Below the pieces are notes generated by a model. The model ran no database searches, was not told where the DNA came from, and saw only the letters and a list, made by a program, of their open reading frames with translations. Below are positions 51,897-57,635 of a DNA stretch of 64,000 bases, piece by piece (the stretch's first letter is position 1; every line of letters starts with the position of its first letter). The position numbers and the translations under genes are program-made. Source of the DNA: Lacinutrix jangbogonensis (lineage in GTDB: Bacteria; Bacteroidota; Bacteroidia; Flavobacteriales; Flavobacteriaceae); contig NZ_JSWF01000019.1 of assembly GCF_000797445.1 (NCBI RefSeq), positions 62,001 to 126,000 on the forward strand. The letters are read 5' to 3'.

Positions 51897-52793
51897 ATGA
51901 ATAAAGCTAAGATTATCGACATTATAAAAGAATATTCACAGATTTTATTAGCTATTCTTTTAGCAAGTATTGGTTTAAAAGCATTTTTATTACCAAACAA
52001 CTTTTTAGATGGTGGTGCAACAGGAATTGCAATATTAATTAGTAAAACAAGTACAATAGATATTTCTATTATACTGCTATTGGTAAGTATCCCATTTTTA
52101 ATTATTGGCGCTTATACTGTTTCTAGACGCATTTTAATTAAATCTATTATTTCTATCATATTGCTATCTATTTCTATAAGTCTAGAAACTTTTCCAACAA
52201 TAACAGAAGACAAACTTCTTATTTCCTTTTTTGGAGGTTTGTTTTTAGGTTCAGGCATTGGTTTAGCCATTAGAAATGGTTCTGTTTTAGATGGTTCTGA
52301 GATTTTAGGAATTTTTATTTACGATAGATTTGGAATTTCAATTGGTAAAACAATTTTATTTTTTAATATTATTCTATTCTGTATTACAGCAATGGTGTTA
52401 ACTACCGAAATTGCGATGTATTCTATACTAACCTATGTTATTACAGCGAAAGTTATTGATCTTATAATAGAAGGTTTTGAAGATTTTGTAGGATTTACAA
52501 TTGTCTCAAGAAAAGCAGAAGCTATTGAAAATGCATTACTTTATGATATGGGAGTTGGAGTTACTATTTATAAAGGCGCATCAGGTTATGGTAGTTCTGG
52601 TATACAAGAAGAAACACGATTAATCCATACGGTTATTAATCGTATAGATATTAGAAAAACGTATCGTCTTATAAATGCAATAGATGAAGATGCTTTTATT
52701 ATAGAGTTTGATATAAATAACGTAAAAGGTGGTGTTTTAAGACGTTATTTCAATACGAAGGAAGGTAAAAATTTAGATTTATCCAAAGCATAA
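51897..52793 (+). CDS. YitT-family membrane protein (DUF161-DUF2179)
   Basis: A 298-residue protein. Five or six membrane helices occupy the first about 200 residues (AFLLPNNFLDGGATGIAILI is the family motif), and the cytosolic DUF2179 domain follows (FTIVSRKAEAIENALLYDMG, GVTIYKGASGYG). The function is unknown; a transport role is usually assumed. It stands alone, with the minus-strand cold-shock gene facing it. Confidence 0.92.
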   Translation: MNKAKIIDIIKEYSQILLAILLASIGLKAFLLPNNFLDGGATGIAILISKTSTIDISIILLLVSIPFLIIGAYTVSRRILIKSIISIILLSISISLETFPTITEDKLLISFFGGLFLGSGIGLAIRNGSVLDGSEILGIFIYDRFGISIGKTILFFNIILFCITAMVLTTEIAMYSILTYVITAKVIDLIIEGFEDFVGFTIVSRKAEAIENALLYDMGVGVTIYKGASGYGSSGIQEETRLIHTVINRIDIRKTYRLINAIDEDAFIIEFDINNVKGGVLRRYFNTKEGKNLDLSKA

Positions 52794-52813
52794 AATGAGT
52801 ATAACATAAAAAA

Positions 52814-52837
52814 GCCTTGATTATTTCTAATCAAGGC
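52814..52837 (-). terminator. Terminator of the cold-shock gene
   Basis: GCCTTGATTA (52814-52823), loop TTTC, TAATCAAGGC (52828-52837): a perfect ten-base stem. The A-run before it on the plus strand is a T-run on the minus strand, so it mainly serves the gene at 52867-53319 and may also stop transcripts from the YitT gene. Confidence 0.8.
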
Positions 52838-52866
52838 CAACATGTTTATTACACGTTAATAGAATG

Positions 52867-53319
52867 TTATATTTTCTTTACACGTACAGCATTTAAGCCT
52901 TTCATGCCTTTTTCTAATTCAAATTGTACTTTGTCGTTTTCTGTAATTTCATCAATTAAACCACTAACGTGGCAGAAATATTTTTCTGAATCTTCGGCAT
53001 CAATAATAAAACCGAAACCTTTAGAAGAATCGTAGAATGACACTTTACCTTTTCTAATAGGATCTACTTCTGGTAAATCTTCTTTTTTAGGCACGCCTAA
53101 TACAATATTATCAGCTTTTATTTTGATTTTATCTTCTGGATCTGGTGGAGTATCTACAAGATTTCCATTGAAATCTACGTAGGCAAACTGGATACCTTGT
53201 GAACCATTCTCTGCTGATTCAGCCTTTCGAGCCTCCATCTTCTTTCTTTTGTCTTCACGTTTTTTAAGACGCTTTTTCTCTTTTTCTAATTTGTTAAATG
53301 TCTGTTGCGACTTTGCCAT
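52867..53319 (-). CDS. Cold-shock domain protein with basic N-terminal extension
   Basis: A 150-residue nucleic-acid-binding protein. The first about 35 residues are a very basic coiled helix (KEKKRLKKREDKRKKMEARK). The C-terminal 60 residues are a cold-shock domain with GKVSFYDSSKGFGFIIDAED and YFCHVSGL. The RNP1 (KGFGFI) is intact, and RNP2 is the variant FCHVS. The arrangement is common in Flavobacteria. It probably acts as an RNA chaperone. Confidence 0.9.
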   Translation of the reverse strand: MAKSQQTFNKLEKEKKRLKKREDKRKKMEARKAESAENGSQGIQFAYVDFNGNLVDTPPDPEDKIKIKADNIVLGVPKKEDLPEVDPIRKGKVSFYDSSKGFGFIIDAEDSEKYFCHVSGLIDEITENDKVQFELEKGMKGLNAVRVKKI

Positions 53320-53416
53320 TCTTCTTCTGTGTAATGTTAATGATTAGCTGAAATGCTAAATATTTTTGTAAAAATACGATTTTCAATTGGGAAATTAAAG
53401 GAAATAGTAAAGTTTA

Positions 53417-54117
53417 CTATTCTTCGTCTTTTGCTTTAATCACTGTTATGGTTGCTTTTACTCCTGTAGCTAAATTCCATTGATTGGTAACAATTGGATT
53501 TCCATAATCGTCTAGTACTTGAAATTCTGCCGTATTTGGACCACTTGTTCCTTGATTTAAAGCTTCAAATTCTATAATATTATCTCCAGGAGACAATGTT
53601 AAAAAGAAACCTTTACTATGGTTTTGTAATAGTACGCGAGATTGGGCAATATTCCCATTTACATGCACACGAATTAAATCGCCATCTTCTGCTTGATGGT
53701 CTCTATATATAATATTTACGCGTTTTGATTTTGTACTATATTCACCCAAATGCTGCGTAACTTCGCTTCCATTATGTCTGCGTTCGTCGTCCTTTTTTAA
53801 CTTTAAAGCACGTCTTAATTGCTTTTCATATAACTCTGCGGGATTTCTAAACTTGTTTTCTTTAATCATTGAAAACTCTTTGCGTTGTGCAACAGGAAGT
53901 GCTTCTGTTTTTGGCAAAACTATTTCGTTTTTTGTTTCGTCGTCCGGAACTGCACTGTTTTTTTTTCAGGCATTATAATAAGTTCATTATCTTCTTTCGG
54001 ATCTTCAACGTCTTCAGCTGGAATTATTATAGACTTATTCTCATTATCGATTTGAGCGCTTGCACAGAGCACTAAAAAGAATGTAAAAAGAAAAAACAAG
54101 TTAAACTTCATGTTCAT
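53417..54117 (-). pseudogene. Exported protein gene split by a frameshift in a nine-A run
   Basis: Two adjacent minus-strand frames form one gene. The first (from 54117) gives a signal peptide (LCASAQ, residue 22) and ends KTVQFRTTKQKTK at 53920. The second (53417-53917) continues MPKTEALPVAQRKEF and carries a beta-sandwich-like C-terminal part with DGDLIRVHVNGNIAQSRV and FLTLSPGDNIIEFEA. Adding one A to the run of nine A (53958-53966) restores an unbroken frame reading EKKNSAVPDDETKNEIVLPK across the joint. The cause may be mutation, sequencing error or slippage. The function is unknown. Confidence 0.8.
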
Positions 54118-54239
54118 ATAAATCTATTTTACGAAAATAATACAAAAACTATACCTAAGTATTAAATTTTTATTAATCTCTTAAAACATTTGCAGTTTGA
54201 AACAAAAAAAAAGTAATTCTTCACCTTCTACTCTCTTAA

Positions 54240-54360
54240 AGCGCTAATTAATAGTTAAAATATGTTAAAATAGTACTTTGTTTTACATAGTACTGTAACA
54301 AAGATAGTTTTCTGTCGTCTTTCTAGTATAACAAAATAATTAGCAACCAAAATTAAAACC
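54240..54360 (+). promoter_or_regulatory. Leader A of the microprotein array
   Basis: About 105 bases repeated almost exactly at 54855-54960. It contains GTTAAAATATGTTAAAAT, then AGTACT (54272-54277), 11 bases, AGTACT (54289-54294), then GTAACAAA and CTGTCGTCTT with TAGTATAACAAAA. The paired self-complementary AGTACT boxes look like an operator for a dimeric regulator placed over a promoter. It ends nine bases before the first microprotein start. Confidence 0.65.
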
Positions 54361-54368
54361 ATAATAAC

Positions 54369-54455
54369 ATGAGAACTTTAAACAACAACGAATTAACAGG
54401 AACATTAAAAGGCACTAAAAGTAATACTTGGAATACAAGAAGACGTTTTAGATAA
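54369..54455 (+). CDS. Microprotein 1 of a paralogous 28-residue family
   Basis: 28 codons: MRTLNNNELTGTLKG then TKSNTWNTRRRFR. The peptide is Asn/Thr-rich and ends in a strongly basic tail (RRRFR). It has no signal peptide and no hydrophobic helix. I know no family for it. Four paralogs follow with silent codon differences (for instance GGC/GGA, AAT/AAC, CGT/CGC), so the peptide itself is under selection. A possible hairpin AATACC/GGTATT stands in the gap after it. The tail could bind nucleic acid or be a processed peptide; this is speculation. Confidence 0.75.
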   Translation: MRTLNNNELTGTLKGTKSNTWNTRRRFR

Positions 54456-54531
54456 TTTTAGAATCATCAATCAATACCTAAATTATTTGGTATTAAGCAA
54501 ACAAATCAATCAAATCAAAAATCACAATATT

Positions 54532-54618
54532 ATGAGAACCTTAAACAACAACCAATTAACAGGAACATTAAAAGGCACTAAAAGTAACACTTGGAATACA
54601 AGAAGACGCTTTAGATAG
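54532..54618 (+). CDS. Microprotein 2
   Basis: 28 codons: MRTLNNNQLTGTLKG then TKSNTWNTRRRFR. It differs from microprotein 1 by Glu-to-Gln at position 8 and by several silent changes (CTT/TTA region and CGC for CGT). The gap before it is 76 bases, and the gap after it only 35 bases, unlike the others. It has no known function. It is part of the first block of three genes behind leader A. Confidence 0.75.
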   Translation: MRTLNNNQLTGTLKGTKSNTWNTRRRFR

Positions 54619-54653
54619 AAACAGAATTAGCAATCAATTAAAATTAATATAAT

Positions 54654-54740
54654 ATGACAACTTTAAGTAATAATAATTTAGCAGGAACATTAAAAGGAAC
54701 AAAAAGTAATATTTGGAATACAAGAAGACGTTACAGATAA
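54654..54740 (+). CDS. Microprotein 3 (second subtype)
   Basis: 28 codons: MTTLSNNNLAGTLKG then TKSNIWNTRRRYR. This subtype has Thr2, Ile at position 20 and a terminal RRRYR; it recurs as microprotein 5. The change of F to Y and T to I in the same pair of genes shows two subfamilies that were duplicated together. It is the last gene of block one and is followed by a hairpin-forming stretch (TACTGAA/TTTGGTA). Confidence 0.75.
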   Translation: MTTLSNNNLAGTLKGTKSNIWNTRRRYR

Positions 54741-54854
54741 TTTTGGAATCATCAATACATACTGAAATTCTTTGGTAGCAATCATAAATTTTAATTTGAT
54801 TTTTTAAAAAAAAATAACATGCGTCCGCTACTACTCTTCAAAAGTCACCACTAA

Positions 54855-54960
54855 TTAGTTAAAATATGTTAAAATTATACTTTGTTATGCATAGTACTGT
54901 AACAAATTTTATTTTCTGTCGTCTTACTAGTATAACAAAACAATTAGCAATCAAATTTAA
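54855..54960 (+). promoter_or_regulatory. Leader B of the microprotein array
   Basis: A second copy of the leader at 54240-54360: AGTTAAAATATGTTAAAAT, a changed first box (ATACT), 11 bases, AGTACT (54893-54898), then GTAACAAA, CTGTCGTCTT and TAGTATAACAAAA. It ends about 11 bases before microprotein 4. The conservation of the whole leader indicates that it was duplicated together with the genes or is under selection. Confidence 0.65.
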
Positions 54961-54971
54961 ACCACAATATT

Positions 54972-55058
54972 ATGAGAACTTTAAGCAACAATCAATTAAC
55001 AGGAACATTAAAAGGAACAAAAAGTAACACTTGGAATACAAGAAGACGTTTTAGATAA
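54972..55058 (+). CDS. Microprotein 4
   Basis: 28 codons: MRTLSNNQLTGTLKG then TKSNTWNTRRRFR, the F subtype, with Ser5 in place of Asn. It is the first gene behind leader B. It is followed by a hairpin (TACTGAA/TTCGGTA) in the 61-base gap. Gene order leader-F-subtype-Y-subtype is the same as in block one, where the F subtype is doubled. Confidence 0.75.
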   Translation: MRTLSNNQLTGTLKGTKSNTWNTRRRFR

Positions 55059-55119
55059 TTTTAGAATCATCAATCAATACTGAAGTTATTCGGTAACAAT
55101 CAAATTAAATCAATATAGT

Positions 55120-55206
55120 ATGACAACTTTAAGCAACAATAAATTAACAGGAACATTAAAAGGCACCAAAAGTAACATTTGGAATACAAGAAGACGTTAC
55201 AGATAA
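55120..55206 (+). CDS. Microprotein 5 (second subtype)
   Basis: 28 codons: MTTLSNNKLTGTLKG then TKSNIWNTRRRYR, the Y subtype like microprotein 3. Lys8 replaces the Asn of copy 3, and Thr10 the Ala. The invariant parts across all five copies are NN, L, GTLKGTKSN, WNTRRR and the terminal Arg. It is followed by the hairpin TACTTAA/TTTGGTA and then by the longer relative at 55276. Confidence 0.75.
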   Translation: MTTLSNNKLTGTLKGTKSNIWNTRRRYR

Positions 55207-55275
55207 TTTTAGAATCATCAATCAATACTTAAGTTATTTGGTATTAATCAAACAAATCAATAAAAGACTAATATT

Positions 55276-55410
55276 ATGAAAGCAATTATTAACACCTTAA
55301 GAAAAACAAATTGTATTACTGAAGAACGTTTACATGTTAGTAGAGAAATCTTTAAATTCAGTAACACAAAAGACGGATTATGGAGCGGAGCTAAACGCTA
55401 TGCACATTAA
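55276..55410 (+). CDS. 44-residue small protein ending the microprotein array
   Basis: 44 codons: MKAIINTLRKTNCITEERLH, then VSREIFKFSNTKDGLWSGAK and RYAH. Its C-terminal part (SNT...W...KR) recalls the SNTWNTRRR end of the 28-residue peptides, so it may be a distant relative or a partner. It has a single Cys. It shares the transcript direction and precedes the terminator at 55434 by 23 bases, so it is the last gene of the operon. The function is unknown. Confidence 0.7.
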   Translation: MKAIINTLRKTNCITEERLHVSREIFKFSNTKDGLWSGAKRYAH

Positions 55411-55433
55411 TAATTGCTCGATTAATTTAAAAG

Positions 55434-55469
55434 AAAGCCAGTGAATTAAAGTTCACTGGCTTTTTTTTT
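55434..55469 (+). terminator. Strong intrinsic terminator of the microprotein operon
   Basis: AAAGCCAGTGAA (55434-55445), loop TTAAAG, TTCACTGGCTTT (55452-55463), followed by further T to 55469: a perfect 12-base stem with U-tract. It shows that a plus-strand transcript really ends after the 44-residue gene. Confidence 0.9.
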
Positions 55470-55513
55470 GTTCTAGTTTTTGTAACTTCACACTGTTAAT
55501 CAATATTATAAAA

Positions 55514-56839
55514 ATGAAAATAATTGTACTTAGTCTTTGTTTTGTCACTCTCCTAATCTCTTGTAATACAGAAATCAAACCAGAAACCGAAGAACAATTA
55601 TTAGCGCGAGCAAAAGCGATCCACGAGCGTGTGATTACTTTAGATACACATTGCGATATTAATGTGAAGAACTTCACAGATTCTTTAAATTATACACAAG
55701 AATTAGATACACAAATCACATTACCTAAAATGAAAGCTGGTGGCCTCGATGTTGCTTGGTTAATAGTTTATACTGGTCAAGACTCTTTAACAGATAAAGG
55801 ATATAAAAACGCTTACGAAAATGCAATGGCTAAATTTGATGCTATCCATAAATTAACTACAGAAATAGCTCCAAACGACATCGAATTAGCCGTAAGTTCT
55901 AGTGATGTTGAACGTATTACTAAATCGGGAAAAAAGGTAGCTATGATTGGGATAGAAAATGGTTATCCTATTGGTTTAGATATTAAAAATGTTGAAAAAT
56001 TTTATAATCTTGGAGCACGCTATATGTCTTTATCTCATAATGGTCACAGCCAATTATGTGATAGTAATACAGGTGAAGAAAAAAACGATTGGTTACACGA
56101 TGGTTTAAGTGATTTAGGAAAAGAGGTGGTTTTAGAAATGAATCGGCTTGGTATGATGATAGACGTTTCACATCCTTCTAAAGAGTCTATGAGACAAATG
56201 ATAGAATTGAGTAAAGCGCCAATTATAGCCTCACATTCTTCAGCTAGAGCCTTATGTAATCACAGTAGGAATTTAGATGATGAGCAGTTACAATGGTTAA
56301 AAGAAAATGGTGGTGTTGTGCAAACCGTGGCTTTTAAAAGCTATTTGAATACTAAAAAGGAAGACATCTATCAAAAAGAAAGAAAAAAATTATTAGAAAA
56401 AATTGGAGATTCTATTCATGAGAGCGGCAATAATTTATTTGTTAAAAAGTGGTATTCTGAAGGGCATTGGAACACATTAACAAAAGCTGAAAAACAAGAA
56501 ATTAATGATGGCGCAGCGCTTAAAGTACTCCTAAATTTATTTGAAAAGAAATCTAAGACTATAGCTAACTTTCCAGAGAATGTAAGCGTTACCGACTTTG
56601 TAAACCATATCGATTACTTAGTAGAAAAAATGGGAATTGATTACGTTGGTATTAGTAGCGATTTTGATGGTGGTGGTGGCATTGAAGGTTGGAAAGATGC
56701 CAGTGAAACCTTTAATGTTACTTTAGAATTGGTAAAACGTGGGTATACAGAATCTGATATCGAGCAGCTTTGGAGTGTTAATTTACTTAGAGTTTTAGAT
56801 GAAGTTGAGGCTGTGGCTTATGAGATTCAAAAAAGCTAA
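55514..56839 (+). CDS. Membrane dipeptidase (peptidase M19) lipoprotein
   Basis: A 441-residue exported zinc peptidase with lipobox LLISC (Cys17). The metal ligands are seen in TLDTHCDIN (His and Asp), GIENGYPIG (Glu), and the two His in DVSHPSKES and IASHSSARALCNHSRNLDD. The C-terminal part VGISSDFDGGGG is typical of the family. It cleaves dipeptides (renal-dipeptidase type) in the periplasm. It is a normal length for Bacteroidetes M19. The CDF gene converges on its end with a one-base gap. Confidence 0.93.
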   Translation: MKIIVLSLCFVTLLISCNTEIKPETEEQLLARAKAIHERVITLDTHCDINVKNFTDSLNYTQELDTQITLPKMKAGGLDVAWLIVYTGQDSLTDKGYKNAYENAMAKFDAIHKLTTEIAPNDIELAVSSSDVERITKSGKKVAMIGIENGYPIGLDIKNVEKFYNLGARYMSLSHNGHSQLCDSNTGEEKNDWLHDGLSDLGKEVVLEMNRLGMMIDVSHPSKESMRQMIELSKAPIIASHSSARALCNHSRNLDDEQLQWLKENGGVVQTVAFKSYLNTKKEDIYQKERKKLLEKIGDSIHESGNNLFVKKWYSEGHWNTLTKAEKQEINDGAALKVLLNLFEKKSKTIANFPENVSVTDFVNHIDYLVEKMGIDYVGISSDFDGGGGIEGWKDASETFNVTLELVKRGYTESDIEQLWSVNLLRVLDEVEAVAYEIQKS

Positions 56840-56840
56840 T

Positions 56841-57635
56841 TTATTTACTAAGTTTCAAAATACGATAAGCACCTTGTAGAACTAATACAAAAACGATTAC
56901 TCCAATAATTAAATCTGGTGTATTAGAACTTAGAAAATTGACTAATATTCCTGCCGCAATGACTCCTAAATTTATAATGACATCATTAGATGTAAAAATC
57001 ATACTAGCTTTCATATGCGCTTCTTTTTTACTTTTAGATTTTTGTAAAATATAAAGACAAACGCTATTTGCAATTAAAGCAAAAATAGAGACGATGATCA
57101 TCGTTTGAAAGTCTGGAAGTTTTTCTGAACTTAAAAACCGTCTTAAAATTTCTAAAAAGCCAATAAGAGCAAGCACTATTTGAAAATATCCAGCAATTTT
57201 TGCAATCTTTTTCTTCTTTATTAAACTTCCTCCAACAGCAAAAAGACTTATTCCATAAACAAAACTATCAGCCAGCATATCTAAACTGTCAGCTACAAGT
57301 CCCATCGATTTTGAAATTAGACCTGTAGTCATTTCAATAATAAAAAACAGAAAATTGATGATAAGAACAGACCACAATAGTTTATACTGGTTTTTATCTT
57401 CTTTAAAGAGTGTTTGATTTGTTTGTTCTGTAGAAACCTTTTGTCCACCTAAATTAAGTTCTAAAATAGAAGCTTCAATTTGGGTTATTTCGCCATCATG
57501 AAATACGGTTAATGCTCTATTGGGGATATCAAAATCAAGATTTTTTATACTGGAAATACCATCTAATTTTATTCTAATTAGATTTTCTTCCGAAGGACAA
57601 TCCATTTTAGTGATCTTAAATACCGTTTTTTGCAT
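56841..57635 (-). CDS. Cation diffusion facilitator with N-terminal metal-binding-like domain
   Basis: A 264-residue membrane transporter. Residues 1-75 resemble a heavy-metal-associated domain (FKITKMDCPSEENLIRIKLD), but only one Cys is present. About five to six membrane helices follow with the CDF metal site in SMGLVADSLDMLADSFVYG (DSxDMxxD). The second metal motif is weaker (FTSNDVIINLGV). The usual cytoplasmic C-terminal domain is missing, so it is short for CDF. It likely exports a divalent metal such as zinc or cobalt. Confidence 0.87.
   Translation of the reverse strand: MQKTVFKITKMDCPSEENLIRIKLDGISSIKNLDFDIPNRALTVFHDGEITQIEASILELNLGGQKVSTEQTNQTLFKEDKNQYKLLWSVLIINFLFFIIEMTTGLISKSMGLVADSLDMLADSFVYGISLFAVGGSLIKKKKIAKIAGYFQIVLALIGFLEILRRFLSSEKLPDFQTMIIVSIFALIANSVCLYILQKSKSKKEAHMKASMIFTSNDVIINLGVIAAGILVNFLSSNTPDLIIGVIVFVLVLQGAYRILKLSK

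Follow-up and report, generated by a model that had tools for sequence, protein, structure and literature searches.

Twin leaders of a microprotein array in Lacinutrix jangbogonensis resemble extracytoplasmic function sigma factor promoters and carry a conserved upstream block

We analysed a 64,000-nucleotide (nt) stretch of the Lacinutrix jangbogonensis genome (contig NZ_JSWF01000019.1, positions 62,001 to 126,000; hereafter the window), in which two similar leaders, A and B, precede an array of short open reading frames (ORFs) encoding microproteins. The genome comprises 4.0 Mb in 46 contigs. Analysis of the leaders indicated that each is very probably a promoter of the extracytoplasmic function (ECF) sigma factor type. 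An ECF-type promoter under a sigma factor of the GFO_1088 family, combined with a conserved upstream block, is probably the best explanation of the whole. This explanation is carried by the anatomy of the leaders, the conservation of that anatomy, its tie to microprotein arrays, and the match of its -35 element and spacer to the promoter of the sigma gene itself.

Repeat search and alignment revealed that leader A (54252–54357) and leader B (54856–54961) form a direct repeat of 106 nt with 89% identity and an offset of 604 nt, which confirms the near-identity described in an original prediction made from this DNA. The prediction had also described a pair of AGTACT boxes in leader A, spaced by 17 nt, with one of them altered in leader B. 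We found the boxes of leader A at 54272 and 54289, at just this distance, and that of leader B at 54893, where the hexamer 17 nt 5' reads TATACT. The boxes were further said to overlap a probable promoter with no regulator gene adjacent. Both statements agree with our analysis: the predicted promoter is of a specialised kind and the right box flanks its -35 element, and no regulator gene was seen by eye among the ORFs at 48–62 kb of the window. The AGTACT pair alone is only mildly unusual: when up to one mismatch is tolerated, the window contains a single AGTACT-N11-AGTACT against an expectation of 0.15, and at least one was present in 14 of 100 shuffles. The elements of the two leaders are as follows.

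54254–54258 and 54264–54268, + strand: GTTAA repeats of leader A, 10 nt apart, 40 and 30 nt 5' of the -35 element
54272–54277, + strand: left AGTACT box of leader A, overlapping TACTTTGT (54274–54281), which fits the TAnnTTGY of Flavobacterium psychrophilum SM5 promoters
54286–54299, + strand: conserved core CATAGTACTGTAAC of leader A, containing the right AGTACT box (54289–54294) and the predicted -35 element TGTAAC (54294–54299)
54316–54320, + strand: predicted ECF-type -10 element CGTCT of leader A, 16 nt past the -35 element; start expected at about 54327–54331
54858–54862 and 54868–54872, + strand: GTTAA repeats of leader B
54876–54881, + strand: altered left box TATACT of leader B, overlapping TACTTTGT (54878–54885)
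54890–54903, + strand: conserved core CATAGTACTGTAAC of leader B, containing the right AGTACT box (54893–54898) and the predicted -35 element TGTAAC (54898–54903)
54920–54924, + strand: predicted ECF-type -10 element CGTCT of leader B; start expected at about 54931–54935

Both leaders combine the -35 element TGTAACA, a 16-nt spacer, and the -10 element CGTCT, which is the anatomy of an ECF sigma promoter, with about 50 bp of conserved sequence above the -35 element. The right AGTACT box lies within a longer core, CATAGTACTGTAACA, which ends in the -35 TGTAAC, and the last T of the box is shared with the -35 element. We compared 22 other leaders, obtained as 22 rows from 21 of 23 submitted loci (L042 gave none, and L019 gave a variant); five microprotein loci with other promoters (L033, L034, L035, L038, and L043) were left out beforehand. 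As these leaders had been selected by the -35/-10 pattern, independent information comes only from the spacer, the flanks, and the upstream block. The spacer was 16 nt in all 22, with 15–17 nt allowed; in 21 of them TATA began 6 nt past CGTCT, and GTTAA repeats lay upstream. In a scan of named records, at least 117 stretches matched, of which 80 were examined, and 70 named leaders were kept after 10 with short flanks were dropped. The records carry Bacteroidetes titles, for example Winogradskyella, Maribacter, Aequorivita, and Algibacter. The spacer was again 16 nt in all 80 examined sites (15–17 nt allowed), and TATA occurred within 16 nt past CGTCT in 43 of the 70 leaders. A scoring matrix built from 69 named leaders, with one Winogradskyella leader excluded as possible kin, gave 89.1 for leader A and 79.4 for leader B, the next score in the window being -29.0. 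When the 18 core bases were masked, the leaders scored 53.2 and 43.4, followed by their own opposite strands (11.8 and 8.9) and then by 0.1. A sigma-70 scan, tried separately, gave matches only to a consensus not expected to operate in this phylum.

To describe the distribution of the promoter core, we used the pattern CATAGTACTGTAAC-N15–17-CGTC, with 18 fixed bases, and its reversed motif as a control. Within the family, 64 of 199 genomes carried the core, at 72 sites in total (71 with a spacer of 16 nt and one with 17 nt), and the control gave no match. Of 296 genomes sampled across the order, six had the core, all of them among the 50 genomes of the same family and none among the 246 outside it, with one control match in the 296; the genus best represented in this sample (g146) had no core. 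The core element is therefore widespread, not universal. The named scan and the unnamed 199-genome sample overlap, and their counts are not independent.

Microprotein arrays follow 67 of the 70 named sites and encode Arg/Lys-rich products of 28, 37, or about 44 amino acids (aa). The classes, defined by patterns written after viewing the sequences and having no matched null set, are 28-aa proteins ending in WN.KRR.R, 37-aa proteins with SKR..W, and proteins of about 44 aa whose C-terminal region contains W and basic residues. In a second set of sites, 29 of 30 loci lead such arrays, as judged by eye. The leader subtype tracks the array class: among leaders of 28-aa arrays, 35 of 41 have the second GTTAA, and among those of 37-aa arrays, 19 of 21 lack it, with 8 of the 70 named leaders falling in neither class or both. 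A profile of the 28-aa protein matched 67 of the 199 family genomes (E ≤1e-5), and a 28-aa match lay within 400 nt of 47 of the 72 core sites. Matches to the 28-aa protein were found in 20 of 60 related genomes (E ≤0.1); that in G030 falls within a 753-aa frame and probably arose by chance. We take the array position to be old, because one secreted-protein family (245 aa in L134) neighbours the array in 22 of 41 neighbourhoods compared, that of the window included.

The genome has 25 sigma-like matches, 21 of them above the cut-off and one taken as the primary sigma factor. An exact same-strand TGTAAC/CGTC element was found upstream of two of the 20 sigma genes scanned, on contigs C25 and C14. 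The C25 gene, which lies on another contig than the array, encodes a 169-aa ECF sigma factor of the GFO_1088 family (NCBIfam NF058625, sigma_PG0214; 234.6 bits versus a cut-off of 130) and is followed by genes for an anti-sigma-like protein and a DUF4252 protein. The candidate is thus a member of the family that goes with GFO_1090/DUF4252, and its promoter shares the -35 element and the spacer with the leaders, reading TGTAACA...CGTCGTAA with a 16-nt spacer in 28 of 30 relatives. GFO_1088-type sigma factors occur in 63 of the 64 site holders, matched by eye, the exception being G114, a genome 81% complete. The C14 gene encodes a 218-aa ECF sigma factor beside a DUF6249 gene. A separate observation concerns L105 on contig C44, where a one-mismatch TGTAAC-N17-CGTA lies upstream of a 292-aa sigma frame resembling the primary sigma factor gene.

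The pattern TGTAACA-N15-CGTC occurs at 11 sites in the genome, and its reversed control at none. None of the 11 sites lies inside a same-strand frame of at least 80 aa, and 10 are within 60 nt of an ATG, the eleventh lying 62 nt ahead of a TTG-started ABC ATPase frame. Leaders A and B account for two of the sites, and others precede the C25 sigma gene and two tandem 84-aa paralogues; the remaining genes, named by eye, we take to encode an ABC ATPase, rhodanese-like and secreted ankyrin-like proteins, and small membrane proteins resembling YqaE/Pmp3, DUF4870, and DUF456. The tandem paralogues carry CGTCGTAATA and CGTCTTATTAGTATAAC, that is, the CGTCG and CGTCT forms of the -10 element side by side, suggesting that one sigma factor reads both forms. 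These paralogues (L355 and L356, contig C36:28913 and 29306) each have their own ECF-type promoter with a 16-nt spacer and form another duplicated leader. On account of the spacer, the -35 element, and the paralogue pair, with the base after CGTC counting against it, the GFO_1088-type sigma factor of C25 is the likely partner of the leaders.

A related promoter is the SM6 motif of F. psychrophilum, a mapped ECF motif with a CGT -10 box that is induced by low nutrients; its targets, as given in the excerpts of the report considered here, comprise an ECF/anti-sigma pair, an ABC ATPase, a rhodanese-related protein, and genes of the type IX secretion system (T9SS) (PMC9723704). ABC ATPase-like and rhodanese-like genes, recognised by eye, are likewise among the 11 sites of L. 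jangbogonensis, whereas those excerpts contain no CATAGTAC/GTTAA block and no microprotein arrays. Our literature searches found no paper tying the GFO_1088 family to microprotein promoters, and searches with promoter and peptide strings and for flavobacterial microproteins found nothing on this array; two microprotein peptide strings were absent from the portion of the main text of PMC11683478 that was covered.

Several observations weigh against the explanation favoured here. The -10 element of C25-type sigma genes is CGTCG in all 28 matched relatives versus CGTCT in the leaders, and GFO_1088-type sigma factors are present in 173 of the 199 genomes anyway. Fisher tests, uncorrected for relatedness or genome size, associated both candidates with the site (GFO_1088, p 0.0005, odds 14.3; C14-type, p 0.0004, odds 3.0). 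The genome has about 20 ECF genes, and with the upstream regions of 20 of the 25 sigma-like matches scanned, the actual partner could be an ECF sigma factor that does not regulate itself. At none of the 11 sites did we recognise a T9SS gene, a kind of gene that figures prominently among the SM6 targets. With regard to the arrays, the exact core lies upstream of 46 of 84 loci with 28-aa microproteins, the rest having diverged cores or other promoters, and the exceptions among the 70 named sites are L199 and L242, with a secreted-looking protein, and L196, with no recognised microprotein. The same arrangement, a microprotein-type promoter before a secreted-looking protein without an array, is seen in L076, where the protein has 188 aa.

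Comparison of the named leaders located GTTAA at -40/-41 in 62 of 70 and at -30 in 39 of 70. At the nine other sites in the L. jangbogonensis genome, AGTAC lies near the -35 element only at the YqaE-like gene (offset -7), that of the sigma gene being at -43, and a single GTTAA is present at three; the complete upstream block was found at none of these sites. The CATAGTAC flank of the right box was likewise found in none of 30 sigma-gene promoters. The complete block is, judging by the leaders compared, a property of microprotein leaders that is common to many genera. An activator site is the preferred explanation, though the same picture would be expected from an RNA polymerase contact or, in part of the leaders, from a second promoter, and a dedicated extra factor acting at the block is proposed tentatively. 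Such a factor could possibly be dimeric, reading a degenerate pair of boxes and being added to the sigma factor rather than replacing it. Separately, we noted at the 52-aa gene of L354 (contig C34:13635), presumably YqaE/Pmp3-like, that ATAGTACTT stands directly 5' of TGTAACA as a near-match to the microprotein core.

The original prediction ascribed the leaders to a dimeric regulator, which in its strict form would act on the two AGTACT boxes alone at an ordinary promoter. The boxes do overlap a predicted promoter, they are 17 nt apart in leader A, and a weak pair is kept through A.TAC[CT] in 58 of the 70 named leaders. The exact left box, however, is kept in only 9 of 70, and the boxes are only part of a larger ECF-type promoter whose fixed -35/-10 geometry accounts for more of the conservation than they do. 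Leaders L039–L041 (G017) lack the boxes and yet keep TGTAACA-N15-CGTCT and the GTTAA repeats. A search of the genome for AGTACT-N9–13-AGTACT, covering exact pairs and not inexact ones, gave no AGTACT-pair regulon; the single other pair has a different spacing (N9) and is intragenic, falling within an open frame of 1007 codons or more. In addition, the housekeeping -7 element TAnnTTTG has no + strand match in 54200–54370 or 54800–54975 and is absent from the 50 bp upstream of the core in all 70 named leaders. Control by such a regulator alone is thus improbable. It is somewhat less improbable, though still unlikely, that the upstream block itself represents an additional, SM5-type promoter, with the left box as its -7 element, so that the promoters would be arranged in tandem without any activator site. 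TAnnTTGY is matched by TACTTTGT in both window leaders (54274 and 54878) and has a match at the same offset in 29 of the 70 named and 13 of the 22 other leaders, and tandem promoters for alternative sigma factors have been shown at the remFG-sprCDBF operon of F. psychrophilum, according to the excerpts of PMC9723704. Against this, TAnnTTGY is absent from 41 of the 70 named leaders, 28 of the 70 read TACCTTT there, no TTG stands at a single fixed distance upstream of it, and the CATAGTAC flank downstream of it would be left unexplained.

A cognate ECF sigma factor other than that of C25, such as the C14 protein, or several sharing the promoter, would fit the same anatomy and is the least unlikely of these alternatives, though we consider it doubtful. 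The C14 gene has its own TGTAAC/CGTC element, C14-type factors are associated with the site (found in 88 of the 199 genomes, comprising 40 of 64 holders versus 48 of 135 others), and several ECF sigma factors may share SM6, as the excerpted text indicates (PMC9723704). The promoter of the C14-type family (L317–L346) is itself strongly conserved, with TGTAACC, a spacer of 17 nt, and CGTC in 26 of 30 relatives; its spacer is 17 nt in all 26 exact cases, versus the 16 nt and TGTAACA of the leaders, and the factor was not found at E 1e-30 in 24 of the 64 holders, for example in G029 with two sites. The 218-aa C14 protein, which we considered first, was ranked below the C25 factor on the grounds of spacer and co-occurrence. 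Finally, the leaders might act as RNA, as a riboswitch, attenuator, or small RNA, with the conservation reflecting RNA structure. Conservation extends past the -10 element in the TATA described above, and the F. psychrophilum RNA Rfp11, with a strong predicted structure, lies behind an SM6 promoter in the portion of the source considered; most conserved bases, however, are upstream of the predicted start, and the ORFs show coding selection (see below). Rfam gave nothing in leader A or B at E ≤1, and its four weak matches in 52000–57500 all fall at 55406–55517, around the terminator. An RNA function is therefore very improbable, and the ECF-type promoter with an upstream block remains the favoured explanation.

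Leader A is followed by three 28-aa ORFs, and leader B by two 28-aa ORFs and one 44-aa ORF, as listed here.

54369–54455, + strand: 28-aa microprotein 1 (MRTLNNNELTGTLKGTKSNTWNTRRRFR)
54532–54618, + strand: 28-aa microprotein 2
54654–54740, + strand: 28-aa microprotein 3, MTTL subtype
54972–55058, + strand: 28-aa microprotein 4
55120–55206, + strand: 28-aa microprotein 5, MTTL subtype
55276–55410, + strand: 44-aa microprotein of the second class, C-terminal GLWSGAKRYAH; 12-member alignment, with relatives behind the same promoter type
55429–55468, + strand: predicted intrinsic terminator at the end of the array; two terminator-like sites, one per strand, versus a shuffle mean of 0.2

The 28-aa ORFs look like real genes because of their substitution pattern: the ratio of nonsynonymous to synonymous differences (pN/pS) is 0.21 across the five window copies and 0.44 for 165 related coding sequences (2987 sampled pairs), the latter sequences having been chosen by a pattern fixing several residues. 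Representative microproteins had no match in Pfam, NCBIfam, or PHROGs at the curated cut-offs, and the 44- and 47-aa microproteins gave only stray family matches (E 0.08–0.33). The DUF1127 class is arginine-rich and stress-induced. Its Pfam model matched none of the 22 members of microprotein set A2 at E ≤1, nor the 37-, 44-, and 47-aa members tried, and the likeness, both kinds of protein being tiny, is an analogy only. According to the parts of two reports considered here, three Agrobacterium DUF1127 proteins act via the sensor kinase PhoR (PMC12501420, PMC11707872). A structure model of the 44-aa microprotein from the 12-sequence alignment, a single long helix (mean predicted local distance difference test score 73.3; predicted template modelling score 0.29), was too weak to use. 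Short inverted repeats, for example AATACC...GGTATT, occur in the spacers between ORFs, such as 54456–54531. The conserved secreted-protein gene adjoining the array (53417–54117) is split over two frames near a T run, and full-length relatives are present in other genomes of the family.

Further 28-aa copies are located elsewhere in the genome: three on contig C14, two on C33, one on C30, and one on C29. The C14 copies have a perfect sigma-54 element, TGGCACATCGATTGCT, with one match in 18 kb versus 0.02 expected; this element (L130, C14, 8244–8259) stands before the three paralogues, with the palindrome-like TGTTCGATAACGAACA upstream. By eye, the C14 copies adjoin divergent genes for an NtrC-like response regulator and a kinase and precede an efflux-type membrane-fusion/ABC/permease set, the C33 copies precede an ABC transporter, the C29 copy precedes a sensor kinase and a response regulator, and the C30 copy lies within a gene run below a TetR-like gene. 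These positions suggest that the microproteins are a shared output of several stress circuits.

In the mechanism that we propose, each leader would act as an ECF-type promoter, with transcription starting 8–12 nt past the -10 element and leaving an untranslated leader of about 40 nt. The promoter would fire when a stress or starvation signal releases an alternative sigma factor, most likely the GFO_1088-family ECF sigma factor of C25. The upstream block, consisting of two GTTAA repeats, the degenerate A.TAC[CT], and the sequence through CATAGTAC into the -35 element, most likely serves an activator or an RNA polymerase contact, and this activator or contact may be dedicated to microprotein arrays. 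The duplicated leader would provide two predicted starts for one array of basic microproteins, five of 28 aa and one of 44 aa, ending at the predicted terminator. By analogy, the microproteins may be small regulators of stress responses and bind to RNA or to partner proteins.

At its broadest, and speculatively, this would be a stress module of the whole family, in which an ECF sigma factor and a dedicated candidate activator at GTTAA/A.TAC...AGTAC are reserved for arrays of 28–44-aa basic microproteins, while members have also been recruited, elsewhere in the genome, into transporter and two-component operons and into sigma-54 operons; several envelope-stress circuits would then share one microprotein class. 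The literature searched gave no description of such a module. The 18-base core has exact matches in 64 of the 199 genomes, almost every one from a different genus. It flags widespread microproteins whose tested members matched no family in Pfam or NCBIfam. The conserved block atop an ECF promoter would be a good place to seek an ECF transcription co-activator in this phylum. If the link to GFO_1088 is true, an ECF sigma factor that is found in most genomes of the family would gain a conserved output, and the role of its response would become testable.
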